From NCBI GenBank assembly GCA_963971575.1, contig OZ020611.1, forward strand, positions 178,438,071 to 178,502,070: DNA of 64,000 nucleotides, written 5' to 3'. The position numbers were made by a program, and so were the translations under genes. This document shows positions 1 to 60,892 of the stretch, in pieces. Below the pieces are notes generated by a model, which was not told where the DNA came from, did not search any database, and worked only from the letters and a program-made list of their open reading frames with translations. The stretch comes from Liopterus haemorrhoidalis (taxonomy: Eukaryota; Arthropoda; Insecta; Coleoptera; Dytiscidae). Positions within the stretch are counted from its first letter, which is position 1. Each line of letters starts with the position of its first letter.

Positions 1-460
1 GTCTCCAAATTGGAGTCCAAATTTCTCGCGACAAAATTTGGCAGTGATTTTAGCATGGGTGGATAGCTGAATGGCCACCCATACTGCTTTTTTGATTATA
101 CTACGTTATTCTACACCAAAAGTGGTCCTGGTATGTAAAATTTCACACTCCTACAGGCAATAGAAGTGATTTAACAAAGGATCAAAGTTGGTAATTTTTG
201 CGGTATTTACGCATGAATGGGACGAGAGCCCATTGAATATGGACCTGTTATTTAAGAACCAAAGCAGATTGAGCTCTAATATTTTGCAAAGTGTCATTTG
301 GGGTCTAGTGCTATCTTAATACAAAATTTCATGGCATTTGGAGAGGGTCGAGTGGGAGCCATAGGTGTCTTTTTGGTGATTTGAGATGGAATGACCCAAT
401 TCCTTTAACAAGTTCATATGTGAATAACGTTCTCTTCTTTTCAATGTATAAGCTATATTG
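1..460. other. no recognisable feature
   Basis: A+T-rich sequence with no sustained open frame, terminal repeat or RNA gene that I can recognise. Confidence 0.4.
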
Positions 461-643
461 AACATTGGCTAACTCTTGATATTTTGCCCAATTTATGACC
501 TATATATGTACAATATGGTACAACAATTTTGTAGCAAATATTAGTTGTACTATACATATCCTACATGTTTACAATATTGGCTGTCTTTGAATATAGAACC
601 CTGCTATCCTTGCCAATAATCGGGCAATATTACAGCCAATGTT
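461..643. mobile_element. short MITE-like inverted repeat
   Basis: AACATTGGCT followed by a TTTTGCCCAATT-type stretch on the left is mirrored on the right by an imperfect inverted copy ending AGCCAATGTT. The arms are about 35 bases with gaps and enclose about 110 bp without coding potential. No clear target duplication, so the superfamily is unknown. Confidence 0.4.
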
Positions 644-1734
644 GGTCCAATCAGGATGTGCTACAGGGGATCTTTTAACCATATATTACACCATAAATCA
701 CGTATTATTTTAAATGTATGCACCTATTAACAAGCCACCAACTATCGCCACAGCATAGTCTGTTCACGCTATAGCTAGCCGAGAAAATTGTGAAGAAAAA
801 CTGTATCGTGTGTTTGCTCTAACGATCCGGTATACCTGCACAAGTAACACTTTGTAGGTAGACCTGCGCAGATTTACCTGTACGTGTATAGCCGGCTTAA
901 CCCTATTCTAGTACCTTATTTTCAAGTTCTGTTGAACATCTTTCAATCATCTTCAACATATCTATTCTTAAAACAAAATTATCTTTTATTACATTCGTTC
1001 AATTTAATTTGATGAATCAAATCAACAATCTATTCAGTGCTATCAATGTCGGTATTGGCCCGATATTGGTTTAATAAACACGCAATTCTAGATTGATTAC
1101 AGTAGAACAATTTAGTAGGTACTTTATTAAATTTGCCAGCATTCAATAACCGACATTCGAGGGTTTATTTACATTATGTGTTCAGGGTCATTATTGCATT
1201 GACTCACTGACATATGTTACCAATTATAGTAATAAACATTGTTTCTATAACTGTGAATGAATAACATGTTAAGTTAAGTGTTTGTTTTGTGGTTAAAAAA
1301 AGCAAGAACACATAATGGATCCTGGCCTCTATTAGCTTCTGTTTTGGGTCTGTCCAGTTTTTATCTTTTTGTTTTTAATCCCCAAATTTATACAGATCTG
1401 CTTTCATTTGATCTTTGTACCTAACTTCATGTTAAAGATAAAGATAAGGAAAAACGTGCCTAAGATGGTTTGCTGATTTTTACTAATTTATTCTTTCCAC
1501 GTGCGCTGCCTCTACAATTTATATCACAACACACATAAAACTAAATTCTTCTCTCTCGATGCCGAGCGTTTGTCGATTTCCTCACACACACTTGTGTCGT
1601 GCGTGTTGCGTTTGTAATATAAGATAAATAATATAAGGACTTGCAGCTTTAACGTGACTTCTGAACTATGTAAGTTCATTTTTACTATACAGTACATTAT
1701 ATATCACATTGCTCTAGCAATCAGGTTTAACAAT
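644..1734. other. no recognisable feature
   Basis: A+T-rich unique-looking sequence. A short stretch near 1046-1074 (AATGTCGGTATTGG) resembles the terminus of the preceding element, but no pair is seen. Confidence 0.3.
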
Positions 1735-1965
1735 CGAGCTGCTCAGGTGTTAAGTTGCATTTTTTAATAAGTTCAAATATGGATGTAAAACATGAATTAT
1801 GCTACTCCTGATAATTTATAAGAAATATTTGGTTGGTAGAACTGCGCGTTTTATTGTTCGTCACAATGTTATCAGTGGTACCTTACATGTTTATATCTTA
1901 TGTTTAAAACATTAATTAACATCTCAAAAGTATGTTTTTGTTGGTTATCTACACCCGAGCAGCTC
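1735..1965. mobile_element. MITE with 15-bp inverted ends
   Basis: GAGCTGCTCAGGTGT at 1735-1749 pairs with ACACCCGAGCAGCTC at 1951-1965, one mismatch over 15 bases. The 200-bp interior has no open frame. Flanks are AT-rich and no certain target duplication is visible, so the superfamily is undetermined. Confidence 0.45.
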
Positions 1966-3017
1966 AGTTATTATAATTAAATGTTACCTTAATATTTTAA
2001 GTAGCCTTTATGTAGCGAACCTTTGTTACTAAACAAAAAGAGAGAAAATCCAGCTGTAGAACAGAAAACAATGCTCCCCAAAGGTATTTTTGTTTTACAA
2101 TAAATTGTTGGCTCAAAAATTTAACTCAAAAACTTGACGCGACCCGTTGTATCTATACCGGTAATACCTGTATTAACAGCTAGTAAACCTAGGTCAAACT
2201 ATTTTCGGGTCACGACCCAGGGTTTGGAAACAAAAGAGATTGAAGAGACCCAACTTCGGTAACTCGAATATCTTCACAGAATGCAAAAACATTGATCAAA
2301 AGGGTGCACGAAAACACTTTCAGTGAAAAATGTTACAAGAGAAGCGCTCTGAACTCTTACAAAAAGTACAGTCGGTTTTTATATGAACACAATTACGTCA
2401 AAAGTAATTGTCTATTACGTTTACATAATATGTATAAATACTTGATATAAATAAATTCGCAATTATCATACTGAACTCGTATACTAAGGCAACAAAAAAA
2501 AAATCGTTTTTTCCTTCTTAGATTACCGAGAACCATTCACTTTAAAATATTTCTACACAGAGTTTTAGAACTTGTGAGGTTATGTATAGAAACATTCATA
2601 TGCATACAAACATAATATTCAGGCAAATTTCACCATATGGATGCTACTGTTGCTTACGGCGTACTTAGGTAGTCACACAACATCCCTACATTTGAGTAAA
2701 TACTATGCATATGCGTATAGTGCTCGATGACGTCAATGTCTTTATAAAAAATCCGACTATATACAATAATTGCCTGAACGTGTTAAAAATTCATGGTTCC
2801 TAACTAATAATAAAACGGGTTTAAGTTTTGGTACACTAACCTTGAAATATAATGGTTCGGTTCAGATTCAGATTCACGAAAAATACAGTTTTTTTGGGTT
2901 TTCAGATCGGGTTCAGTTTTATGACCCTGTTGAAAACCTAATTCATTATTTTAGTGGAGCTCTACTGTATACATTACTATTTTTATAAAATGATATGCAT
3001 TAATAAAATACACAAAA
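1966..3017. other. no gene; possible decayed hAT end
   Basis: No coding signal. CCCCAAAGG near 2076 and CCAAACCCTGGGTCG (reverse strand) near 2213-2228 look like decayed hAT-type ends, but no target duplication supports this. Confidence 0.3.
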
Positions 3018-3812
3018 ATTGTTTATGATTATATGTTTAAGCTTTATAAAGAGGCACAAAACTCAGCAATAATTCAAAACGACATAAATTCCATCACAGA
3101 TTGGTGTACTGCATGGCTTTTACCGCTGAACATACTAAAATGTCGCATATTACATCTTGGAAACAATAATCCCAGGCACATTTATTATATCCTAGGAAGC
3201 GCTATGCAGCAGGTCGAAAGTGTAGTGGATCTTGGCATAACCATTACAACAACACTTGATTGGTCACCGCACATAGCTAATATAGTGAAAAAAGCAAATA
3301 AAGTCATGTACATTACATACAAATCTTTTCTTCATCTAACCCCTTCCTTATTTCGTTTAATTTACCTATCTTACATTCGCCCTCTCCTAGAGTTTGCAGT
3401 TGTTGTTTGGTCGCCCTACCTACATCGAGACATACTACTCCTGGAGGGGCTCCAAAGACGTGCTACTCGCCTACCGTGTAGTCTTCGTCATCTCTCATAC
3501 GAACAACGACTTGCAAAACTAAACATACCATCACTAGGTGTTCGTAGAGAGCGCGGAGACCTCATTCAGATGTACAGGCTAACTACAGGCAAGTTTTCCA
3601 CTGATATGTCTTCACTGTACGAACTTAACCTGGACCGTCGGCTTCGTGGACACCATTTAAAATTAAAGCACGAGAAATACAGCAAGCAACCGAGGCAACA
3701 CTTTTTCACCAACCGTGTATTTGAACTGTGGAACTCTCTCCAGGACAATGATGTATCTGCCCCATCGATAAACGCTTTCAAAAATAGAATTAGCCATCTA
3801 TTCCCAATGTAA
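3018..3812 (+). pseudogene. reverse transcriptase C-terminal fragment (CR1/L2-like)
   Basis: Open for 259 codons from the ATG at 3033 to the stop at 3812. The frame runs a little upstream, where Tyr-Asp-Tyr-Met-Phe-Lys-Leu-Tyr sits where an intact enzyme would have the catalytic Tyr-Ala-Asp-Asp box followed by Phe-Lys-Leu-Tyr. Motifs typical of the thumb and C-terminal region follow: VDLGITITTTLDWSPHI, LIYLSYIRPLLEFAVVVW and GLQRRATRL, then a basic tail ending in an AFKNRISHLFP-type motif. The endonuclease and the fingers and palm of the RT are missing, so the piece cannot be functional. The intact downstream frame suggests a fairly recent insertion. Clade placement is by eye; CR1/L2/Rex1-type is likeliest. 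Confidence 0.8.
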
Positions 3813-5613: not shown

Positions 5614-5924
5614 GATACGCAAATTCTTTATACTTGCAAAATTGTCAAAAATGACAGTAATAAACAGTTTTTGTATTTGTTGCTTGATTAACGCCAACAT
5701 GCCCAATTTTGATTTTTCTTCATCAACGGCTTACTACGACGTTTTTTTTTTTGTTTCACATGTTGCAAATAGTATAACATATTTTGATTTTTTTCTTGTC
5801 CAAAAATATTATATACATTTACAATTTTAATTAATTAGAATGATTTTATATATGAAATAGTTACAAATATCTAGTAAAACAAAGAATAATACAAAAAGTT
5901 TTAATTTAACAAGGACGTGGCTGT
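5614..5924. other. no recognisable feature
   Basis: AT-rich. A 72-codon open frame here has no recognisable motif and is probably chance. Confidence 0.3.
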
Positions 5925-6404
5925 CTAGACAGATTGTATGGAACATGATAATGTTGTTTGTAATCGTCCCTTACGATGTAAAGTTTTACTTTATTAATTT
6001 GCGGAATCTTATAGGAATTCCCTCCTTTTGATAACATGGTTGCTTCTAGACAAGTTTAAATGTTAGAAAAACATTATCAAGGATTTGTAAGTTTAATGTA
6101 TTTTGTAGGCAGCCAAACAGTTCGTCGATTGTAAGTCGATTTGGAACTTCTTCCTTGCAATTCAACACAATTTTGATCAAAGTTCGACATTTTGTTAGAA
6201 CAGCGGGTGTCACTTTAATTTGTCTAAAATACGCGGTTTTTTTCTGTGAATTACTTTTGACATATGCAAAACATTTACGTGCCATTTGTTTATTAGTTGC
6301 TTAGCAACCACTTATTTAGTAATAAGAATAAAAAAAGATAATATTACTTTAGCTAATCTCACATTTTTTAAAGTAATGTATACCATATTTTCGGACGGAG
6401 GGAG
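5925..6404. mobile_element. mariner-like MITE, left end missing
   Basis: The right end reads GTATACCATATTTTCGGACG, then GAGGGAG and a TA. From about 5930 on, the interior matches the interior of the complete copy at 44196-44772 (for example AACATGATAATGTTGTTTGT). The left inverted repeat is absent, so this copy is truncated. Both copies share remnants of a minus-strand frame (6046-6285 here) of unknown identity. Confidence 0.65.
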
Positions 6405-7234
6405 TATAATATTGTAATTTTTTACTTTTGGTGCAAGATAATTAAATTTTTGTATAGACATTTCAAAAAAAAATTACTGTTATTTCTATAATTCTAACCA
6501 CCTTAATTAAAAAGTAATGTTTAAAAAACCAAGCCTTTTTCATATTATCCGCTTTTCTCCTATAGTAATTTTGTTTTTTTTTTTTTTTTCGATGATACGT
6601 TGTGAGGCTATCAAACAATAAAATTTAAGAAGAACTTTGTTGTGATTTTGTCGGGTATTTAGTGTTTGATGATATTATTTTTTAATTATTTTTTACCTGG
6701 TCGTATTTGGAGATCAAATGGACAACACTGAGGGGTAGAAGACGAGTTCACATGTAGGGCTGAAGCATTCAAGGATAAAAGAGGCCCTTTTACCCACGGT
6801 TTAAAAAAATGTATTAACCACATTTGCAGATTAAGGTTAAACTCACACGTACCACAGCGTAATCACAATACAGTGGATAAATTATGGGCGGTAATGTATT
6901 TATATGGAAACGCATGATTTTGGTACTCACACGGACCACCGACTGAAGTCGGTTTGGACGGCCATCGTTATGCGTGCACGGTGGGTGATAACCCACTAAT
7001 CACTAAACTATGGTCGTATATTGTGTCTAACAACTCACACGGTGCGACACGCCAACCACTCGCCGCCGACTACGCGTTTTGCGCTACCGTTAAGTGTTTT
7101 GGACAAGGCAATGACCATCGGGCAATGCATCCGACAGTCGGAAGTCCTTTATGACCTAAGCAGGTTCTTTTTTTTTGTTAATCCAGCCGTGGCTCAGACT
7201 GACATATCATTCTGCATAATTAACTGAACTGACT
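6405..7234. other. unassigned, partly GC-richer patch
   Basis: Between about 6830 and 7110 the motif ACTCACACG recurs three times in direct orientation, and ACCGACTGAAGTCGGT forms a perfect palindrome near 6938. This may be a decayed element, but I see no terminal repeats and no gene. Confidence 0.3.
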
Positions 7235-15719: not shown

Positions 15720-15879
15720 AACCCAGGCAGTAGCGTAGCGACGGGCCCATAAGTCCCGCAGCCGCGCGTGCGGGGGGCAATGAAAATATTTAAAAAAAAG
15801 TTGAAAATATTGCAGATTTAGTCAATATATTAACAATTACCTATTGCGATGTAAGTAGTACATTCACAGAAGTAGATGC

Positions 15880-16065
15880 ATCGCTTTTGCCATATTTGAC
15901 ATAACCCGTAAGCGTGGCCACTGCAGAAAGGTTCTTCTGTACATTGAAAAAAAAAAAAATCGTTTAAGGACAACGATGACTCAATATCGATTGTCAGCAC
16001 TAAGCATATTAGCCATTGAAGCAGAAGAAGCTGCTCAAATAAATTTAAAAGATGCCATCGACTAA
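15880..16065 (+). pseudogene. hAT transposase dimerisation domain remnant
   Basis: PVSVATAERFFCTLK starts at 15905, the conserved opening of the hAT C-terminal dimerisation domain (families read PVSNASAER or similar). After a frameshift in an A run, TMTQYRLSALSILAIEAE follows and ends at a natural-looking stop at 16063-16065. The rest of the transposase, including the catalytic core and BED finger, is missing, and an in-frame TAA lies just upstream of the Pro codon. The match to the hAT family is clear; the subfamily is not assigned. Confidence 0.85.
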
Positions 16066-16266
16066 TTTACAGCTATAAAGGTGCCTGTCCACTTGAGAGT
16101 ACTCTCGAGAGTAACTCTCGAGAGTAACTCTCACGGGTTTGTCCACTAGAGAGCTGATTTCGATCGGGTGGACTCTCGAGAGTACCTTGCGAGTTGCTCT
16201 CGAGAGTTACTCTCGAGAGAACTCTCAAGCCTGTGTCCACTTGATCAGTTGTGGAGAGTAGCCAAG

Positions 16267-16356
16267 ATGGCGTCGTACTATAGAAAGGTCGCAGCAGCTG
16301 TAATAATTCTAACTATTTATAAAAAAAGAAAAAAGTTGAATAAAAAAATCTGCTGA
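16267..16356 (+). pseudogene. Harbinger transposase N-terminal exon, copy 1
   Basis: The ATG at 16267 opens MASYYRKVAAAVIILTIYKK, followed by a basic run. In copy 2 the frame continues as WIKSWIDRRRVLGAFNN, which resembles the conserved start of PIF/Harbinger transposases (a Trp-x-Arg-Arg-x-x-Leu-Gly-Ala-Tyr pattern). In copy 1 a TGG-to-TGA change ends the frame after 29 residues. All DDE residues are gone, replaced by mitochondrial DNA about 45 codons in. A longer frame starting at 16168 only translates the subterminal repeats and is not taken as real. Confidence 0.7.
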
Positions 16357-16404
16357 ATTAAGTCATGGATTGATAGAAGACGTGTTTTAGGTGCCTACAA
16401 TAAT

Positions 16405-16754
16405 TTCTGAAAATCAAAAATGAAATGGTGCTGCATCTATTTTTAATAATAAAGTTGAATTGACTAATATTATTAAAAATTTATGTACTTTTAATAACTT
16501 TCTTATAAAATTTATTTTAAATATTATTAATAAAATTGCAAATAAAAATAGTTGAAGCTATAGCTTGTACTAAAAAATATTTAATAGAAGATTTAAAGGA
16601 ATATGATTTTTCTTTTTTCTTAATAAAGGAATGTAAAGTAAAAGAAAGGAAAGTAAATTAATTTCTAATCCTATTCACGCCCCTATTCATGAAATTGTAG
16701 AAATAGAGATTATTCTTCCTGTAAATAAAGTTGATAAAAAAAAAAAATAGATAT
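16405..16754 (-). pseudogene. mitochondrial ND2 5' fragment in the nucleus, copy 1
   Basis: Read on the minus strand with the invertebrate mitochondrial code (ATA Met, TGA Trp, AGA Ser), this gives ND2-like peptides: LSTLFTGRMISISTISW, then WMGAWMGLEINLLSF, then (after a frameshift in an A run) SYSFKSSIKYFLVQAMAS and finally LLLKMDAAPFHFWF. These are conserved NADH dehydrogenase subunit 2 blocks in the right order. TGA at Trp positions shows it cannot be expressed from the nucleus. The start lies directly next to tRNA-Met as in insect mtDNA. An extra indel in the T run near the start distinguishes this copy from copy 2. The far end joins the Harbinger transposase frame. Confidence 0.88.
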
Positions 16755-16755
16755 T

Positions 16756-16821
16756 AAAAAGAAAAGGGTTATTACCTTTATATTTGGGGTATGTACCTAA
16801 AAGCTTAATTAGCATATTTTG
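16756..16821 (-). pseudogene. mitochondrial tRNA-Met copy in the nucleus, copy 1
   Basis: Minus strand GCTAATTAAGC (D arm) followed by TACATACCCC (anticodon loop with CAT) and AAAGG..CCCTT (T arm) is the typical insect mitochondrial tRNA-Met. It lies two bases before the ND2 start. The acceptor has a mismatch relative to copy 2 (TAT against AGA). Confidence 0.87.
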
Positions 16822-16828
16822 TTGTTAA

Positions 16829-16898
16829 TTACATTTTAGTAGATGATGTACAAAGTTTTTTGATACTTTAAAAACTAGTTTAATTCAATTAAATGTAA
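16829..16898 (+). pseudogene. mitochondrial tRNA-Gln copy in the nucleus, copy 1
   Basis: A 70-base cloverleaf. The acceptor arms TTACATT and AATGTAA pair perfectly, and the anticodon stem AAAGT/ACTTT encloses a loop with TTG. It faces the opposite way to tRNA-Met and tRNA-Ile, as in ancestral insect mtDNA. Confidence 0.87.
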
Positions 16899-16961
16899 TT
16901 ACTAAAATAATTTAATAATTTTATTCTAGGCTCTACTTAATTATTTGGGGTAGTTAGTTAT

Positions 16962-17024
16962 TAACAAAGGTAAAAATTTACATAATTTATTCTATGAAAA
17001 TAATTCTTTTAATCAGACATAATG
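16962..17024 (-). pseudogene. mitochondrial tRNA-Ile-like copy, copy 1
   Basis: Minus strand CTGATTAAAAGAAT (D arm), an anticodon arm and TGTAAATTTTTAC (T arm) match mitochondrial tRNA-Ile in layout. The anticodon reads CAT here but GAT in copy 2, so copy 1 has mutated. The 5' acceptor strand does not pair clearly with the 3' strand. Confidence 0.68.
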
Positions 17025-17165
17025 TTTTAAACTTTATTTTAATAAAAAAAAACATATATATTTTCATTTTTAAATTGAATTAAATTTAAACTAATTAATT
17101 AATTTTAATAAAATTAAAAAAAAAAATGGTTAATAGGTTGGTAATTTTCTAAATTTAAAGGTATA
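17025..17165. other. AT-rich tract, possible control-region piece
   Basis: Runs of A and T with TTAATTAATTAATTTT follow tRNA-Ile on its 5' side, where insect mtDNA has its A+T-rich control region. The assignment rests on position and composition only. Confidence 0.4.
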
Positions 17166-17741
17166 AAATTTCCTACAAAACATTATGTTTTTTCATTCTG
17201 TCACGGTAATCGACACATTTCACGATCGACAGAATTTCCCGGAGTTCGTACAAGGCGATTAATTAATTTATTTCCTCCGGTGACGAATTTTTGAACATCT
17301 TGTAAGCAGACAGCTCTCGAGAGTACTCTCAGGAATTCGAACACAGTTCGTATTTGGCGAGCTACTCTCGGAGAGTGTAGGGAGCACGTGTCCACTTGCA
17401 AGTACGTTGAGAGTAGTTAGCTCTCGGAGAGTAGCTCGCCACTTTCAGCGAGTTACTCTCAGATGCCTGTCCACTTGAGAGTAACTGCTATCGAGAGCTT
17501 CTCGCCACTATTTACTCTCAAGTGGACAGGCACCATTAAGGCCAAAAAATAACAATTTCGTTAATTTTATTTTTTTCAATTTATCTTATTTATTTAGTTT
17601 GTAAGATATTTTTAATTATTATTTTCAAGATAATATTTTATAAAAAAGTTGTGTTGTTTTCTTAATATACCATTTTTTTTGTTGGGGGGGGGGTGAGTTT
17701 TGCGTGGGGCCAAATTTTGTTGCTACGCTACTGAACCCAGG

Positions 17742-18194
17742 AATAGGTACAAAAAGGCATTTTACACACGAGTTGTATATATAATTTTTCCTAAGACCAC
17801 AAAGCGTAAATATTACATTCTGAGACAAATAAAACGTTTTGACTATTAGTTATTTCATATTTCAAAACATCAAAATCATGGCAAACTAAAAATTGCGTCT
17901 TTATTGTTTATTCACGGCGGTATTGAGAAAACTATATTAATAAAATTGGAGGCTATATCTGCTTATTTTTATTTTTTCGGCGTCTTATTTGGTTTCTATA
18001 CGTTTCAGACGATTATAAGAAGATATCAGCAAAAAAATCAATTTATGTCTCCGTCACGTAAAAACGGCTGGATAAATTTTCAAGAAATTTGGTAAGATGA
18101 TACAGTAAAACCAGGATTCGAACATATACTATATGGCACCACAAAAATTTTATTCCAAGGTTGTGCTTCGGGGTTAACACTGTTTACTAAAAAA
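17742..18194. other. no recognisable feature
   Basis: AT-rich. A 63-codon frame at 17904-18095 has no motif I recognise. Confidence 0.3.
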
Positions 18195-19215
18195 CTTAAA
18201 ATATGTTTTATTATTGGCTTAACAGAAAAATGTATATAACAGTAATTGTTTACAATAAGGAAACAAATATTTTTTGTTTAATGCATTTATTCACTTTGAT
18301 GAATATTTAGGGAGTTACCTTAAGACACCTTAAATCAAAACCTTTGAAATATCCCGTATATTACCGTATTGACCAGAATATAAGACTAGTTTTTTTACGC
18401 CGAAATATAAAAAACAAGGGTCGTCTCATATTCGGATCCTTTTTATACTTAAAAAATATTATTTTTATCAGATTTTATCGGTAAAAAGTGGGATTCGTTT
18501 TATAATCAGGGTCGTCTTATATTCGGGTTAATACGGTATTTATTTAACAGAAAAAAATATATGACAAAAATTGTTTATAATACAAAAACCAATATTTTTA
18601 TTTTATGTACTTTATCGATTCGATGAACATTTGGGAAGTTAAAGGGGAACCCTAAAATTAAAATCTTGAAAAATCTTATTTATTATTTATTTTACATCAA
18701 AAATGTATGTGAGAAAATGTGTTTAGAATAAGGAAAAAATTATTCTGTTAAATACAGTTTTTAATAAGAAAAGTATTTAGGGGGCCAATGGTAGTGTTAC
18801 CTATAAAGTTGAAATATCTCATCTCCGTAACAGCAAAAATGAATATAATGATAGTTAGTTAAAAATTAAAAAAACGATTAACTATAATTAAAACACGATT
18901 TTTTTTCTGTTCAACGAAGTTTTTAATAAGATATATTTGGACAGCTCTGTGGTGCGTACCTACAAACTTCAAAGATCTTATTATTTACTAAATCACAAAA
19001 CTGTATATAAGAAAATTTGATTGAAATGAAGAAATATTTCTTTTCTGTTCAAGTTTTTAATAAGATGAATATTTGGGGAGCTATGGAGAGCGCTACCTAT
19101 AACCGAAGTATCTCACTTGTTATTTACTTAACATCAAAAATATATGTAAAGCAGTGATTTGAATAAAGAAACGATTTATTCTGTTCTACTTAAAATGAAA
19201 TATTACTTAACAATT
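18195..19215 (+). repeat. degenerate tandem array of about 150-bp units
   Basis: A landmark of the form AGTTTTTAATAAGAT-AATATTTGGGGAGCT recurs near 18281, 18606, 18756, 18917 and 19049. Spacing is about 133-161 bp once a 175-bp MITE insertion is subtracted. Between landmarks each unit repeats CATCAAAAATGTATAT, an AAGGAAA block and ATTCTGTTCAA. About five to six diverged units; no coding frame. Confidence 0.65.
18364..18536. mobile_element. TA-flanked MITE within the tandem array
   Basis: CCGTATTGACCAGAATATAA on the left and TTATATTCGGGTTAATACGG on the right are inverted ends with two mismatches, bordered by TA on both sides. The GAATATAAGAC-type termini suit a Tc1/mariner-pogo MITE. It splits one unit of the surrounding array. 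Confidence 0.8.
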
Positions 19216-19354
19216 ACGTTATGGCAAAAATATGCATAAACAAAACGGTACGAAATCAGGGTAACCAGGTCTCAGGGGTTCACCCGGAGTCTTAGGGTTT
19301 CCGGCCAAAGTTTCAGGGTTCCGGGTTTTGTTATAAAATCTCCGGGTTTGTAGT

Positions 19355-19510
19355 TTGGAGGTGAGGACCTTTTTTTTGCTCATTACTAGTATTTTGGAGG
19401 TGAGCCCTTTTTTCTTTTTGCACATCACTTATATTTTGGAGGTGAGGACTCCTTTGTTACAAATAAAAATACAAGTAATGAGCAATTACTTGTATTTTTT
19501 GAGGTGAGCA
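19355..19510 (-). repeat. 39-bp hairpin minisatellite, three diverged units
   Basis: GGAGGTGAGGACC, a T run, GCTCATTACT and similar blocks repeat three to four times. This is the reverse-strand form of the unit found in hAT MITEs at 7.3, 32.1, 45.7 and 53.6 kb. Upstream (19255-19350) there are CAGGGTTCCGG-like short repeats but no identifiable element ends. Confidence 0.75.
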
Positions 19511-19748
19511 AAATTGAATAAAATATACTATATTTCCAATTTTTTTTTTTTTCAATCTTAAGGTGCCTGTCCACTTGAGAGTACTCTCGAGAGTAACTCT
19601 CGAGAGTAACTCTCACGGGTTTGTCCACTAGAGAGCTGATTTCGATCGGGTGGACTCTCGAGAGTACCTTGCGAGTTGCTCTCGAGAGTTACTCTCGAGA
19701 GAACTCTCAAGCCTGTGTCCACTTGATCAGTTATGGAGAGTAGCCAAG

Positions 19749-19892
19749 ATGGCGTCGTATTATAGAAAGGTCGCAGCAGCTGTAATAATTCTAACTATTT
19801 ATAAAAAAAGAAAAAAGTTGAATAAAAAAATCTGCTGGATTAAGTCATGGATTGATAGAAGACGTGTTTTAGGTGCCTTCAATAATTTCTGA
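19749..19892 (+). pseudogene. Harbinger transposase N-terminal exon, copy 2
   Basis: 47 codons from the ATG at 19749: MASYYRKVAAAVIILTIYKK, a lysine-rich run, then WIKSWIDRRRVLGAFNNF and a stop. The Trp-Ile-(x)5-Arg-Arg-x-Leu-Gly-Ala stretch resembles the N-terminus of PIF/Harbinger transposases. The stop lies in the sequence contributed by the reversed ND2 piece, so the transposase ends at the capture junction. It lacks the whole nuclease domain and cannot catalyse transposition. Confidence 0.72.
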
Positions 19893-20237
19893 AAATCAAA
19901 AATGAAATGGTGCTGCATCTATTTTTAATAATAAAGCTGAATTGATTAATATTATTAAAAATTTATGTTCTCTGAATAATTTTCTTATAAAATTTATTTC
20001 AAATATTATTAATAAAATTGCAAATAAAAATAGTTGAAGCTATAGCTTGTACTAAAAAATATTTAATAGAAGATTTAAAGGAATATGATTTTTCTTTTTT
20101 CTTAATAAAGGAATGTAAAGTAAAAGAAAGGAAAGTAAATTAATTTCTAATCCTATTCACGCCCCTATTCATGAAATTGAAGAAATAGAGATTATTCTTC
20201 CTGTAAATAAAGTTGATAAAAAAAAAATAATAGATAT
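19888..20237 (-). pseudogene. mitochondrial ND2 5' fragment in the nucleus, copy 2
   Basis: In the mitochondrial code the minus strand reads MSIIFFLSTLFTG from the probable ATA start, then ISISSISWMGAWMGLEINLL, still in one frame. In the AAGAAAAAAG region a frameshift follows that is identical in copy 1. The downstream frame gives KYFLVQAMAS and the conserved AAPFHFWF block before the junction. Because both copies share this frameshift, it existed before the element multiplied, or was in the captured sequence. Copy 2 keeps the correct length of the T run that is altered in copy 1. Confidence 0.88.
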
Positions 20238-20238
20238 T

Positions 20239-20303
20239 AAAAAGAAAAGGGTTATTACCTTTATATTTGGGGTATGTACCTATAGCTTAATTAGCATCTT
20301 TTG
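20239..20303 (-). pseudogene. mitochondrial tRNA-Met copy in the nucleus, copy 2
   Basis: Same tRNA-Met as in copy 1, with a better acceptor stem (AAAAGA against TCTTTT). The CAT anticodon lies in the TACATAC loop. Confidence 0.87.
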
Positions 20304-20310
20304 TTGTTAA

Positions 20311-20380
20311 TTACATTTTAGTAGATGATGTACAAATTTTTTTGATACTTTAAAAAATAGTTTAATTCAATTAAATGTAA
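20311..20380 (+). pseudogene. mitochondrial tRNA-Gln copy in the nucleus, copy 2
   Basis: 70 bases with TTACATT/AATGTAA acceptor arms and a TTG anticodon loop, nearly identical to copy 1 and in the same relative place. Confidence 0.87.
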
Positions 20381-20442
20381 TTACTAAAATAATTTAATAA
20401 TTTTATTTTAGGCTCTACTTATTTATTTGGGGTAATTAGTTA

Positions 20443-20508
20443 TTAACAAAGGTAAAAATTTACATAATTTATTCTATCAAAACAATTCTTTTAATCAGGC
20501 ACATAATG
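20443..20508 (-). pseudogene. mitochondrial tRNA-Ile copy, copy 2
   Basis: Minus strand GCCTGATTAAAAGAATTG is followed by TTTTGATAGAAT, keeping the GAT isoleucine anticodon, then the TGTAAATTTTTAC T arm. The acceptor stem is not clearly paired. Confidence 0.75.
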
Positions 20509-21011
20509 TTTTAAACTTTATTTTAATAAAAAAAACATTATTTTTAAATTGAATTAAATTTAAACTAATTAATTATTTTTAATAAAATTTAAAAAAAAAT
20601 GGTTAATAGCTTGGTAATTTTCTAAATTTGGGGGTATAAAATTTCCTACAAAACATTATGTTTTTTCATTCTGTCACGGTAATTGACACATTTCACGATC
20701 GACAGAATTTCTCGGAGTTCGTACAAGCCGATTAATTTATTTATTTCCTCCGGTGACGAATTTTTGAACATCTTGTAAGCAGACAGCTCTCGAGAGTACT
20801 CTCAGGAATTCGAAAACAGTTCGTATTTGGCGAGCTACTCTCGGAGAGTGTAGGGAGCACGTGTCCACTTGCGAGTACGTTGAGAGTAGTTAGCTCTCGG
20901 AGAGTAGCTCGCCACTTTCTGCGAGTTACTCTCAGGTGCCTGTCCACTTGAGAGTAACTGCTATCGAGAGCTTCTCGCCACTATTTACTCTCAAGTGGAC
21001 AGGCACCATTA

Positions 21012-49392: not shown

Positions 49393-50490
49393 CTTTTTTT
49401 TTTTTTTATTTGCAAACATAGAGTGCTTCGACTTCTTGGTCATTAGCACCCGGTACATTGGTGTATACATTAATTTATACAGTTATATAGTATGATATAA
49501 GTAATATTTAACATTTGTATTTAATTAATAGTAACATTTTGAAGGAATTAAACGTATATTATATTAGGTACGGCATGTAATTTAGATTGTGTCATATAAA
49601 TTGGTTTCTTTCAGGAATTTGATAACATCATTGATTTGGTTTGTATTGTTTCTTAGGGCTTCTTCTATTTTGTCGGGGATATTGCACGCTTGGCGTTCGT
49701 TTGAGAATTTTCTGCATGTTGTCAGTATGTGTTCTACAGTTAGATCGACTTGGCAAACATCACATATTGGCTTCGGTTGTTTTTGGAAGATATGTTGATG
49801 CGTGAGGAGGGTATGCCCTATTCTCAATCGGGTGATGGTTTGTTCCTTCCTGTCGTTTTTTGCTTCCCATTTGTTTATATCTTTTTTTATCTTCCTTAAT
49901 TTGTTATTGATTGTGTTGTCCCAGTCTTCTTTCCATTTATTTGTGGTGTGTTTTGCAATGTGGCATTTAAAGTCATTAGCGTCTATGGTGTTGCGGAGTT
50001 TTTCTACATTAATGGCTTCTCTTGCGGCTCTATCGGCTGTTTCATTTCCTTTGATTCCTATGTGTGAGGGCGTCCAGATTATTTTGGATCTTATGTTTTT
50101 GCTGACGTATGCTTCGTGTAGATATTCCTTTATTTTTACTAGTTCTTCTTTTTTAGGGAAAATTTGTGTAAGACTTTGCATTGCGCTTAAGGAATCGGTG
50201 GAGATGATATAGGTTTTATTTGTTTGTCCTTGGTTTTTGATGTACTCTGCCGCTTTGTATATTGCGTAGAGTTCTGCCGAGTAGATGGTAGTTTCGTCTG
50301 GTAGATGGTATTTTTCTATGGTTTCTCCACTGACCATAGCTGCCCCCGTACCGTTTTCTGTTCTTGAGCCGTCAGTATAAATCTGGATTGCGTCTTCTGT
50401 TTGATAGATTATACGTTTGAAGTCGTTTCTCAGTATTTCGGGTGGTGTAGTGTTCTCTACTGTTATGTAATTGTATTTTAGACGCCATCT
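49393..50490 (-). mobile_element. RNase H-bearing non-LTR fragment, second copy
   Basis: Minus-strand 3' fragment: RNase H coding region, 3' UTR and a poly-A tail (the T run at 49393-49408). Truncated at its 5' end around 50455-50490, where sequence of the TTAA MITE begins. Probably I/Jockey/R1-like, judged from the presence of a C-terminal RNase H followed by a Cys-Cys-His-Cys tail. Confidence 0.75.
49582..50490 (-). pseudogene. non-LTR RNase H domain, uninterrupted
   Basis: The frame is open to 50556, although the usual ATG at 50337 would cut the domain. Reading from about 50450: YITVENTTPPEILRND, then AIQIYTDGSRTENGTG (first catalytic Asp), YSAELYAIYKAAEY (Glu), YIISTDSLSAMQSL (Asp), then IIWTPSHIGIKGNETADRAA (His/Asp). 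TITRLRIGHTLLTHQHIF, CDVCQ and VEHILTTC complete a Cys-x2-Cys...His-x4-Cys tail. All RNase H catalytic residues are present and the frame has no stops, so this fragment is younger than its sister at 47.3 kb. Lacks endonuclease and RT. Confidence 0.82.
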
Positions 50491-51064
50491 TGAAAACCAA
50501 TCAACGTATATTAAATATTTGCATAAGACGCGGTAAATTCTAGATAAAGCTTCACTCTACAAATCGACCCGTCCTACCAAGATCGTCGTAACTCAATATT
50601 TTCATTTTTTAAATTATGTTAAATATTAGAATATCGTGTAATCTTTTCATGAAAAAATTCGTATGTCACAAAACTATCATTTTGGTATCATAACCCAGTG
50701 TTTCCCAACCCGTAGTCCGCGGTATGTTTTCAGGTGGTCCGCGACTTCAGCAGCAATAAAAGATTCGTTCCGTCAGTGGCTGAAAAGCACTTTGAAAATA
50801 AAATTGCAAATGTTTTTGTACATGAGCAGTACCAGTTTTGAAACTAGTAACTTTTGATTCATTTGTAGAGTGAATGGTTTTCAAGTACTTGCCAATCAGC
50901 TGTAGCAACGAAGCTAATATAAAAATGTGCGTCACTAGCCACCCCCCATTCCTTACTCTCTCTCGCATACGTCTCAACAACTTTGCGCGCGTAAAAGTCT
51001 CTGCTGTCCCCTGTCCCCACTATGTGTATGTCGGTAGCTTGCACGCGTCTAATTGTTTTCGTTA

Positions 51065-56904: not shown

Positions 56905-59900
56905 GAGGTTGGTAACCCTGAGATGAAGTAATCAGCTGATTTTGACAGTTAAAAATTAAATTAAATTATAAATGTGAAAAATTTTAAAATAAATAAAACA
57001 AATCATAGGCCACCTCGCAGTAAGTTATTTTACAAATATTTAATGTTTTACATTTACTATAAGCATGTATAATTCATTGTAAAATAATATTAAACATTAA
57101 GTCAACTTAATCTGACGTAGTGGAGCATGCGCATTAGTACATGAACAGCTGCAGTGATGCCACTTGACAAATCTGAATCAGAGTAGTTCTAACAAGGAAT
57201 CAGAGATGGCAGCACAAATTAAACGCTAATAATAAATAAATAAATAAATTATATATAATAGATAAATAAAAATTAAATAAATATATAATCAAAATTAAAA
57301 AATTAGTAAATAAATAAAATAAAATAAAAAATTATAAATAATTAATTAATAAAATAAAGAAAATAAAAATAAAAATAAAAATAAATAAATTATTAATAAT
57401 TATTTCACTAACTTAAAATCTGATAGATTACTTCACTCAGAGTAATAATTGAACGCCTAGTGGACTGTTTCGAATACTCACGAAAACCCACGAACCAACC
57501 ACGGCGAAAGTCGGGCGCCGGTTAAATAACCCGTCAACCTGAGTTGGCCAACGGCTTCGGCCGGATGAGCTTTCTCAGAGGGTATAGCGAAAACCTAAGG
57601 GAATTAAATATACCTTAAATTTCACTACTAGTTAGGAGTAACAACCTAGTAAAAAAAACCTGGTATTAGTTGGCCCGACTGATGGTATCCAGTGAGGGTC
57701 CCTGCCTAGGGTTACAGGTGAAAACCGGTCAACGGCCTCGAAGGCAAATGAAGACTTTGGTCTCAATGGCGGAGAGGGCGGAAGAACCAACCACAGGGAT
57801 AGGCCGAATCCCTAAGTCCTGAAAGACAATCGACCTACGGGAATAAATCCAAGACACAAAATTGAACGGTCCTCCAGGGTGGGGGTTTGGGCGATGGGCC
57901 AGCAACCCATCACCAGTAAAAAAAAAATGTATACGGCTAAATTTCCTTATGCCAAGCCTCGGATATCGATTGGATCAACATTACGACGAACAAAAGCGAG
58001 AAAACGGACAATGAGAATAGGTACATGGAACGTGCAGAGTTTAAACAATAAATCTGACGAAGTTTTAGAAGAACTAAATAAACTGAACATTGACATTGCC
58101 GCACTCACAGAAACAAAGAAGAAAGGTACAGGTACAGATGAGAAAAATAAGTACATCCACATTTACAGCGGGGTTGCAAAAGAGGAACGTGCGCGGAGTG
58201 GAGTCTCTATAGCTATCCACAAAAAGTACAAGCGTTTTATAAAATCTTGGGAACATATTACAGACAGAATCATGCAAATCCACATGAATTTGATGAGCCA
58301 CGAAGTTGTCATTATAGGAGTATACGCTCCGAACGAAGATGCCGTTGCAAGTCTCAAGGACGAATTTTATGAACAATTGACAAAATTGCTTGATTCTATC
58401 AGCAATCGCAAAGAAATTATTTTACTTGGAGACCTAAACGGCAGAGTCGGAAAAAGAATTGACGACCCAATAGTTGGAAAATTTGGCGAAGATACTGTTA
58501 ACAACAACGGCGAAAGGCTCATCGAATTATGTCATCGTAATAATTTGTGTATCTCCAATGGCTGGTTTCAGCACAAAGACATCCACAAATATACTTGGAC
58601 ACAACCCACACGACAGCTGAAATCCATTATAGATTATGTAATAATAAAACAGGACACAAAGTTATTTATTACAGATGTCAAAGTGAAAAGAGGAGCGGAA
58701 TGTGGTTCCGATCATCACTTAGTGGAGTCAAAGATATATTTCCCTTTCAAACCGCCAACTAGTAGCAATCCAGTTCAGATTATTGACGATGGAATTACAA
58801 ATCCTGATCAGATTAAGTACAATCTGATAAGCCTTAACGACGATTCCATAAGATTTCTATACCAGCTCAGGTTGACACAGAAGCTCAGTTCAATAGAACA
58901 AGGCTCTCCACAAATAATGTACGACCAAATAAAGACCTGTATACACCAAGCAGCTAAAGAGGCCTTAGGTGAAATCGAAAAATCCCCCTCTAGAAGAAGC
59001 TTGCCAAGATGGTGGACTAAAGATATAGCGCTTAAAATCGAGCTTAAAAAAGAATCGTACATGAAATGGTTGTCATCACAAAACACAGTGGATCGAGCTT
59101 TATACTGCAAATGTAGGAAAGATGCCCAAATAGCTGTGAACAAAGCCAAAAATGAGCAATGGCGGAATATTGGCACAGAAATTAATAAATGCACAGGTAA
59201 TACTAGAGCCAATAAAGCCTGGAGTATATTAAAATCTCTTAGAACACAAAACCAGGACAAGAGCAGTATTAACCTGATTGACACAGATACATGGTGCACC
59301 TACTACAAGCAGTTATTAACCGAAAGCAGGACGGAATTTTTGGATAATAATCAGATGGAAAATAATAACTATCTTAGCTCCCAAGACACAGTTCCCGACT
59401 TCACTTATGAAGAAGTGCTAAAAGCGCTCAAATCCATGAAGAACGGCAAAGCTCCAGGTCCAGGCAATTTATCCATCGAGCTTATAAAATCTGGCCCTAG
59501 TCAACTAATAGAACTGACAACATACATTTTCAATATGTGCCTAAACAACTTTGAAGTTCCTGATGATTGGAAGAAGGCATATATTTCTTCATTGTACAAG
59601 AAAGGTAATCGCCTGGAATGTAAGAATTACCGAGGGTTAAGCGTCATCAGTTCTATGGCCAGGTTGTATGGAAAAGTCCTGAAAGCGAGAATAGAGGCAA
59701 ATCTTCAGATTGCAGAAGACCAAAATGGATTTAGAGCGGGAAGGTCTTGCGTGGACGGTATATTTGTCCTAAAGCAGTTAGTTGAAAAAAGATTGGCGAG
59801 GAATCAACCTACTCATCTCACCTTTATAGATCTTCATAAGGCGTACGACACAGTCCCACTAGGTAAACTATGGGGAAGCATGAGAAAAATTGATGTTAGT

Positions 59901-60892
59901 GAGACTTATGTGAATGCTGTTCGTAATCTTTATGAAAAATGTTCTAGCTGTGTCAAGCTAGGGAAGAAACTCTCTCCCGAGTTCCCTGTAACGAAAGGAC
60001 TCAGACAAGGCTGCACTCTAGCTCCCACCCTCTTCAAGATATATATTGAAGGGGCCTTGAAGGCATGGAGGCGCAAATGCAGTAATATGGGTATAGATAT
60101 TGGAGGCAATCCACTGTATACCCTATTATTTGCAGATGACCAGGTTCTGATAGCTGAAGACGAAGATGATTCCAGCTATATGGTGAGGAAACTAAGGGAG
60201 GAATATAAGAAATGGGGTTTAGAAATTAATGCGCAGAAAACAGAATACCTCGTTGTTGGTGAGAAGGGAAGAGACCTCAAAATAGATGATGGAATCATTA
60301 GAAACTGCCAGTCTTTTAAATACCTAGGTGTTACCCTATCAAATAGAGGGAAGAGTGAAGATGACATCAATAATAAAATAGGGCAAGGGAAGTGTGTAGT
60401 AAGGCAACTAAACCCGGTATTGTGGAACGACAATATAACCAAACGAACGAAAACGGTTATCTACAAAACTATTGTCGAAAGTATCTGTACCTATGGTTCA
60501 GAAACATGGGAGCTCACACAAAGAAATAAAGCCCGACTGAGCGCCGTGGAAATGGACTTTTGGAGAAGGAGTTGCGGTATCTCCAAACTCGAGCACGTTC
60601 GTAATGATACTATAAGAGCAACTATGAATGTTGAAAACTCCATTATAGAATCAATAGAAAGCAAACGACTCTTATGGTATGGGCACCTCCAGCGTATGCC
60701 TGACGACCGATGGCCCAAGAAGATTTGGGAGTGGATTCCTGCGCGCAGACGAAGACCAGGGCGACCCGCAAGGACCTGGGCTCAGGATGTGCGGGAGGCG
60801 ATGGAGGCAAGAGGTCTCCAAGATGGCGACTGGATGGACAGAGTCGCCTGGCGAAAAGGAAGCGAGAAACGGCGCCAGCCGTAAACCACTCG

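Follow-up and report, generated by a model that had tools for sequence, protein, structure and literature searches.

A Harbinger transposon derivative with mitochondrial DNA as cargo, multiplied in the genome of the diving beetle Liopterus haemorrhoidalis

The 64,000-nucleotide stretch analysed here (hereafter, the window) lies on contig OZ020611.1 (positions 178,438,071 to 178,502,070 of the forward strand) of the Liopterus haemorrhoidalis genome assembly GCA_963971575.1, and contains two copies of a non-autonomous Harbinger transposon derivative whose interior is occupied by mitochondrial DNA (mtDNA). The copies measure 1457 bp (copy 1) and 1448 bp (copy 2), are 96.5% identical to each other, and have the ends AGGTGCCTGTCCACTTGAGAGTA...TACTCTCAAGTGGACAGGCACCA in common. 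The 19-base end AGGTGCCTGTCCACTTGAG, with up to three mismatches allowed, occurs at six sites in the window, three per element, and never in 100 shuffles, which agrees with an earlier note on this DNA that had described two elements with the same inverted ends. The right end also contains a second copy of the terminal inverted repeat (TIR) that faces the terminal one, forming a 75-bp palindrome-like stretch in each element (17461–17535 and 20934–21008). Copy 1 is nested in another element, with 12-base ends CAGTAGCGTAGC and the duplication AACCCAGG on either side, whereas copy 2 is not nested and, as the note had read it, is flanked by TTA on both sides. The nesting of copy 1 in a hAT element had also been claimed; the nesting itself is supported by the ends and the 8-bp duplication. 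These features also fit hAT and are the basis of that name, for which Pfam gave no support: a hAT-like peptide of 34 residues encoded in the surrounding element had no match.

A whole-genome search with copy 1 yielded 40 full-length matches (1–1457) on 14 contigs, both window copies included, among the best-scored 40 of 480 first-look candidates, a sample that is nearest to the query rather than random. These copies are 1436–1471 bp long, 95.5–100% identical to copy 1, and 0.3–2.0% from their own consensus, with a median pairwise distance of 0.022, divergences that are biased low because the sample consists of the copies nearest the query. When no more than one mismatch is allowed, the TIR is found at 583 genome sites (297 + 286; backward control, 0), and, given three hits (at most three mismatches) per window copy, the family is likely to comprise about 200 or more copies, an estimate rather than a count. 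Twenty further TIR loci were drawn from the first 100 of the 583 places, nine having closely spaced end hits and 11 being taken in list order minus the known copies; mtDNA is present in 18 of them, one has a right end only, and one shows nothing in the stretch fetched. In the list-order group, mtDNA is found at nine of 11 loci, and ten of the 11 match the consensus with differences of 1.1–9.9%, indicating that the element has been active over a long period. Zero substitutions separate L006 from L007, which lie on different contigs (C13/C6), and likewise L013 from L014 (C15/C2), so that activity was also recent. The element has no transposase gene of its own and exists in many copies of uniform length, as is expected of miniature inverted-repeat transposable elements (MITEs). 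MITEs are typically below about 800 bp; the element, at 1.45 kb, is not short in this sense, and it is therefore called a non-autonomous derivative and not filed as a MITE.

Two kinds of structural variant were also observed. Five loci (L047, L048, L059, L063, and L064) lack consensus positions 1037–1126, a stretch that covers the right-hand portion of the mtDNA and ends shortly after the junction, and probably represent a subfamily. Tandem repeats of the element's right end (about 207–233 bp, TIR-terminated) occur at L026 (C6:11350604-11352001), L018 (C8), and L056 (C1:2214134); L026 has seven right ends, and here a transposon end is becoming a satellite-like array.

The cargo consists of about 0.78 kb of mtDNA comprising the end of the control region, trnI, trnQ, trnM, and the 5′ part of ND2. 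In the reverse complement of the consensus, ARAGORN in metazoan-mitochondrial mode calls trnI(gat) at 511–573 (+), trnQ(ttg) at 637–707 (−), and trnM(cat) at 713–781 (+), followed by ND2 (+); further overlapping tRNA calls in the same output, in G+C-rich ends and elsewhere, were treated as spurious. The same tRNAs were not called in the window by a bacterial-mode tRNA search or by Rfam at the gathering threshold. The order and strands, which we take to be the ancestral insect arrangement, are those of the reversed ND2, tRNA-Met, tRNA-Gln, and tRNA-Ile listed in the earlier note, to which about 140 bp of control-region end beyond trnI can be added. The mitogenome of the same assembly is present as contig C91 (16,544 bp; first 10 kb read, L044), and translation with the invertebrate mitochondrial code gives frames that we take to be COX1, COX2, COX3, ND3, and ND2. 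ND2, the one compared with the database, is 99% identical over 97% to that of Liopterus haemorrhoidalis, the next match being Colymbetes fuscus at 80%. The comparison with the species' own mitogenome, another check that had been suggested, shows that the element is collinear with C91 5844–6620; the alignment has 791 columns, gaps counted, and 679 of them (86%) are identical. The segment is thus nuclear and both homologous to and collinear with the mtDNA of the lineage, as a nuclear mitochondrial DNA segment (NUMT) should be. A spacer of about 60 bp between trnI and trnQ is kept both in the living mitogenome (C91, about 6320–6390) and in the captured segment (consensus reverse complement 574–636).

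The ND2 part of the cargo carries frameshifting indels in the consensus and differs from host ND2 at 13/121, 5/123, and 21/122 sites of codon positions 1, 2, and 3, respectively, so that a protein role is not suggested. After codon projection, with indel-bearing codons dropped, 118 residues of captured ND2 remain, and these are 85.6% identical to host ND2 and 72.6% to the next, Colymbetes, among 23 database ND2 proteins hand-picked from 120 listed. A maximum-likelihood tree was built from 24 sequences, namely 22 of these hand-picked proteins, the host, and the captured segment; the Liopterus entry was dropped because it duplicates the host. In this tree, a branch with 100/100 support separates captured segment plus host ND2 from everything else, the remaining branches being poorly resolved. 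This grouping makes it most likely that capture occurred in the lineage leading to Liopterus haemorrhoidalis.

The origin of the sequences on either side of the cargo is revealed by a coding relative. The Harbinger superfamily looks abundant in this genome, where a search for its nuclease domain gave 1619 first-look candidates, many with long open frames; 150 of these were scored and all 150 exceeded the cut-off, and one of 14 control genomes (Bacteroides ihuae) also matched. One of the TIR sites (C1:213627196) is followed 1.7 kb downstream by a nuclease hit (C1:213628927), a pairing spotted by eye in the first 100 of the 583 TIR places. In the coding Harbinger at this site (L067 + L068; 3521 bp read), TTA precedes the same TIR, the left 22 bp being identical. 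Consensus 1–317 matches it at 91% up to GGTGCC/GGCGCC, past which the element continues into mtDNA and the coding Harbinger into its transposase (DDE_Tnp_4, PF13359, E 9.5e-32, with the exons joined by eye). Consensus 1091–1217 matches, at 80%, the other end of the coding element, where a MADF gene lies in antisense; MADF itself (PF10545, E 1.5e-9) was found in the first exon of this second, Myb/SANT-like gene. About 3 kb of the coding Harbinger (333 to 3392 of the joined sequence) is therefore replaced by mtDNA in the element. Since the relative matches on both the left (91%) and the right (80%), both ends of the element are, by sequence comparison, those of a two-gene PIF/Harbinger, the group being recognizable by the TIR shared at the left end, the DDE_Tnp_4 domain, and the second, Myb/SANT-like gene. 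The element's own two short peptides gave no Harbinger match in Pfam (the first none, the second a sub-threshold Skp1), and the Harbinger assignment of the earlier note is firm because of the coding relative with the same left end.

Table 1. Features of the two mtDNA-bearing elements in the window (window positions)
Feature	Coordinates	Strand	Remarks
Copy 1, mtDNA-bearing non-autonomous Harbinger derivative	16079..17535	+	flanks TAA/TTA
Copy 2, mtDNA-bearing non-autonomous Harbinger derivative	19561..21008	+	flanks TTA/TTA
Left terminal inverted repeat, copy 1	16079..16101	+	
Right terminal inverted repeat, copy 1	17513..17535	-	
Left terminal inverted repeat, copy 2	19561..19583	+	
Right terminal inverted repeat, copy 2	20986..21008	-	
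Harbinger transposase exon 1 remnant, ends at mtDNA junction	16267..16395	+	consensus 1-317 vs coding element L067, 91%
mtDNA segment, copy 1, 776 bp	16394..17169	.	CC (left) and AT (right) common with Harbinger sequence
ND2 5′ part, broken frame, approximate	16394..16754	-	
trnM(cat)	16755..16823	-	placed by transfer from consensus
trnQ(ttg)	16829..16899	+	placed by transfer from consensus
trnI(gat)	16963..17023	-	placed by transfer from consensus
Mitochondrial control region end, approximate	17024..17169	.	
Harbinger MADF gene remnant	17173..17298	-	match to MADF gene end of L068
mtDNA segment, copy 2, 767 bp	19876..20642	.	
hAT-like-ended element hosting copy 1, 8-bp duplication AACCCAGG	15728..17733	.	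without Pfam support

The junctions between Harbinger sequence and mtDNA were compared among the aligned copies, and the same pair is found in 40 of 40, base changes aside, with one copy gapped beside the right junction; at either junction, Harbinger sequence and mtDNA have about 2 bp in common (CC on the left, AT on the right). The mtDNA segment is present at 57 of 59 loci and at none does it leave mitogenome positions 5838–6620, in a comparison that covered the first 10,000 of 16,544 mitogenome bases and the fetched flanks. Within this scope, mtDNA extending past the transposon ends, which would have told against the cargo model, was not seen. In the copies aligned, the mtDNA is, as judged from these sequences, the product of one capture.

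The insertion sites differ from copy to copy. In an all-against-all comparison of the 300-bp flanks of the 40 copies, no collinear shared flank was found except in L018/L026, where the match is a right-side tandem repeat of the element's own end; the remaining matches are a few short repeats at non-corresponding places and, in L038, a repeat that occurs to the left and right of this one locus. The outer flanks are thus unrelated, as had been noted for the window copies, and a larger shared duplication, the other finding that would have undermined the cargo model, is not evident. Sixty end pairs were tabulated (L011 twice, its left end being duplicated), and eight were excluded because of their length or because the right end is in tandem. 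The 52 simple pairs comprise TTA/TTA (23), TAA/TAA (14), TAA/TTA (11), TTA/TCA (2), TCA/TAA (1), and ATA/TTA (1); the 3-bp TWA target duplication typical of PIF/Harbinger is accordingly seen as identical TTA or TAA in 37 of 52, with TWA on both sides in 48 of 52. Among the 37, C precedes the duplication in 18 and G follows it in 19, a loose C-TWA-G preference. Multiplication only by duplication, as is expected of NUMTs, does not describe these copies, which are dispersed, have unrelated flanks, and carry target duplications.

Taken together, the shared junctions, target duplications, and unrelated flanks bear out the proposal that a NUMT became transposon cargo. The best explanation, to which we assign a probability of roughly 0.92, is that a Harbinger element lost about 3 kb of its interior, including most of the transposase and MADF genes, received about 0.78 kb of own-lineage mtDNA in its place on a single occasion, and was multiplied in this form by cut-and-paste transposition. 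The likely event is the repair of a double-strand break that excision had left behind or that had formed within the element: gap repair from a template copy may have halted early, and the loose ends may then have been joined to free mtDNA, with microhomology of about 2 bp at either junction. As the product retained both ends, it could have been mobilized in trans by the transposase of coding relatives, a route suggested by the ends shared with the coding relative and by the truncation of its own transposase; the coding relative is a candidate helper only. Through cut-and-paste transposition, the mtDNA would then have reached many TTA/TAA sites, in a process that was long-lasting and continued into recent time. 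As for the order of deletion and capture, a single failed repair would be the simplest account.

Several observations weigh against this explanation. Fifteen of the 52 simple pairs lack identical duplications, and the TAA/TTA mismatches are one-directional, with 11 pairs, copy 1 among them, against none of TTA/TAA, a combination seen solely in the tandem loci L018 and L026. Such a one-sided bias is not predicted by simple cut-and-paste transposition, and the TAA/TTA pairs could arise by simple gap filling only if T were paired with T in the centre of the target; a search for an explanation found none. Transposition is, moreover, read from filled insertion sites, and the 40 copies, being those closest to the query, represent the family unevenly. 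The coding relative is just 80–91% identical to the element ends, its sequence as read stops before the right terminus, and the antisense frame taken as the far end of its second gene gave no Pfam match; it may be a cousin rather than the helper.

A two-step history, in which an internally deleted Harbinger arose first and a NUMT was end-joined later into a break inside it before multiplication, would leave the same anatomy, and ordinary NUMTs are known to enter breaks. However, the mtDNA junctions coincide with the break-off points of both Harbinger genes, and deletion and mtDNA therefore share their breakpoints. Breakpoints joined without mtDNA were seen in none of the 20 further TIR loci, a small sample in which mtDNA was present in 18 and two gave no answer, and the two-step history appears doubtful. 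Considerably less probable is a horizontal transfer in which the element arrived from another beetle with the mtDNA already inside it. DNA transposons can cross species, and the captured mtDNA is 14% different from that of the host, gaps included, but the ND2 part groups with host ND2 at 100/100 and is far closer to it than to Colymbetes (85.6% versus 72.6%). Transfer from a distant beetle was set aside on this grouping, with which a donor within the same subfamily may be compatible.

That an ordinary NUMT was amplified through segmental or tandem duplication and that the Harbinger ends just happen to lie nearby is highly improbable. It would agree with passages of a numt review in which such multiplication is expected (PMC2820518), and the window copies lie 2 kb apart; the flanks, however, are unrelated in 40 copies on 14 contigs, target duplications adjoin the element ends, and copy 1 is nested in another element but copy 2 is not. 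An assembly or sequencing artefact, with mtDNA reads fused to nuclear DNA, has next to no probability: the analysis found nothing in its favour, and the segment differs by 14% from the mitogenome in the assembly, has frameshifts in its consensus, and occupies 40 separate genomic contexts. The deletion of a Harbinger interior and its replacement by mtDNA, followed by transposition, thus remains the preferred explanation.

The element shares TIRs, 3-bp TWA duplications, and a two-gene coding relative with PIF/Harbinger transposons and their internal-deletion derivatives, and differs from them in that its interior is replaced by organelle DNA. For Medicago PIF/Harbinger, spreading deletion derivatives have been described, with abortive gap repair proposed as a model (PMC2213677). 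Pack-TYPE elements of plants are likewise non-autonomous DNA transposons with captured DNA between their ends (PMC8903248); their cargo is coding DNA of nuclear genes, whereas that of the beetle element is mitochondrial, and a similar way of working is suggested here rather than membership. The strings "mitochondri" and "organell" do not occur in the main texts of PMC13317346 and PMC8903248. As a nuclear, pseudogenised mtDNA fragment of its own lineage, the segment resembles NUMTs, but it has been multiplied by transposition. According to the 2010 review, numts lack any mechanism of transposition, their multiplication being expected to occur through tandem or segmental duplications, and the cat numt is given as 7.9 kb in 38–76 tandem copies on one chromosome (PMC2820518); the beetle segment is amplified likewise, but its copies are dispersed and carry target duplications. 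Foreign filler DNA of 1–123 bp is documented at rice transposon excision sites (PMC4423477), where foreign DNA is also patched in after excision; the beetle insert is about 0.78 kb and lies within an element that kept moving.

Three candidate precedents were rejected on the passages concerned: the tarsier genome, in which numts are described as random insertions (PMC5059674), a study that merely filters numts from a repeat library (PMC12910113), and a numt survey by similarity (PMC11797046). In the open-licence PMC literature, to which the search extended (subscription papers and Repbase being outside its scope), no transposon family with a mitochondrial passenger was found described. Helitrons are another kind of transposon with captured foreign DNA. 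The transposition machinery and the capture of foreign DNA by transposons are thus already known; what appears to be novel is the mitochondrial cargo, together with what it implies for NUMTs.

Elsewhere in the window, a 1022-residue open frame at 57816–60884 (+) with endonuclease and reverse transcriptase domains represents a non-LTR retrotransposon, and a 324-residue frame with an RNase H domain at 49582–50556 (−) probably belongs to another retroelement.

Because a single assembly contains the host mitogenome, a coding relative, and numerous independent copies, the history of mtDNA transposition can be traced in this beetle. The element suggests that organelle DNA may be drawn on in the repair of transposon breaks, and the many copies of the insert could mislead both mtDNA work and repeat annotation. 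The capture of mtDNA by transposons also becomes testable elsewhere, through mtDNA within TIR elements. A bolder and rather unlikely proposal is that the mtDNA-bearing form is the family's main lineage, having spread more widely than forms without mtDNA, that it continues to move, and that transposition has through it become the chief origin of the nuclear mtDNA of this beetle; if so, organelle DNA would be mobile within genomes and, in principle, between them.

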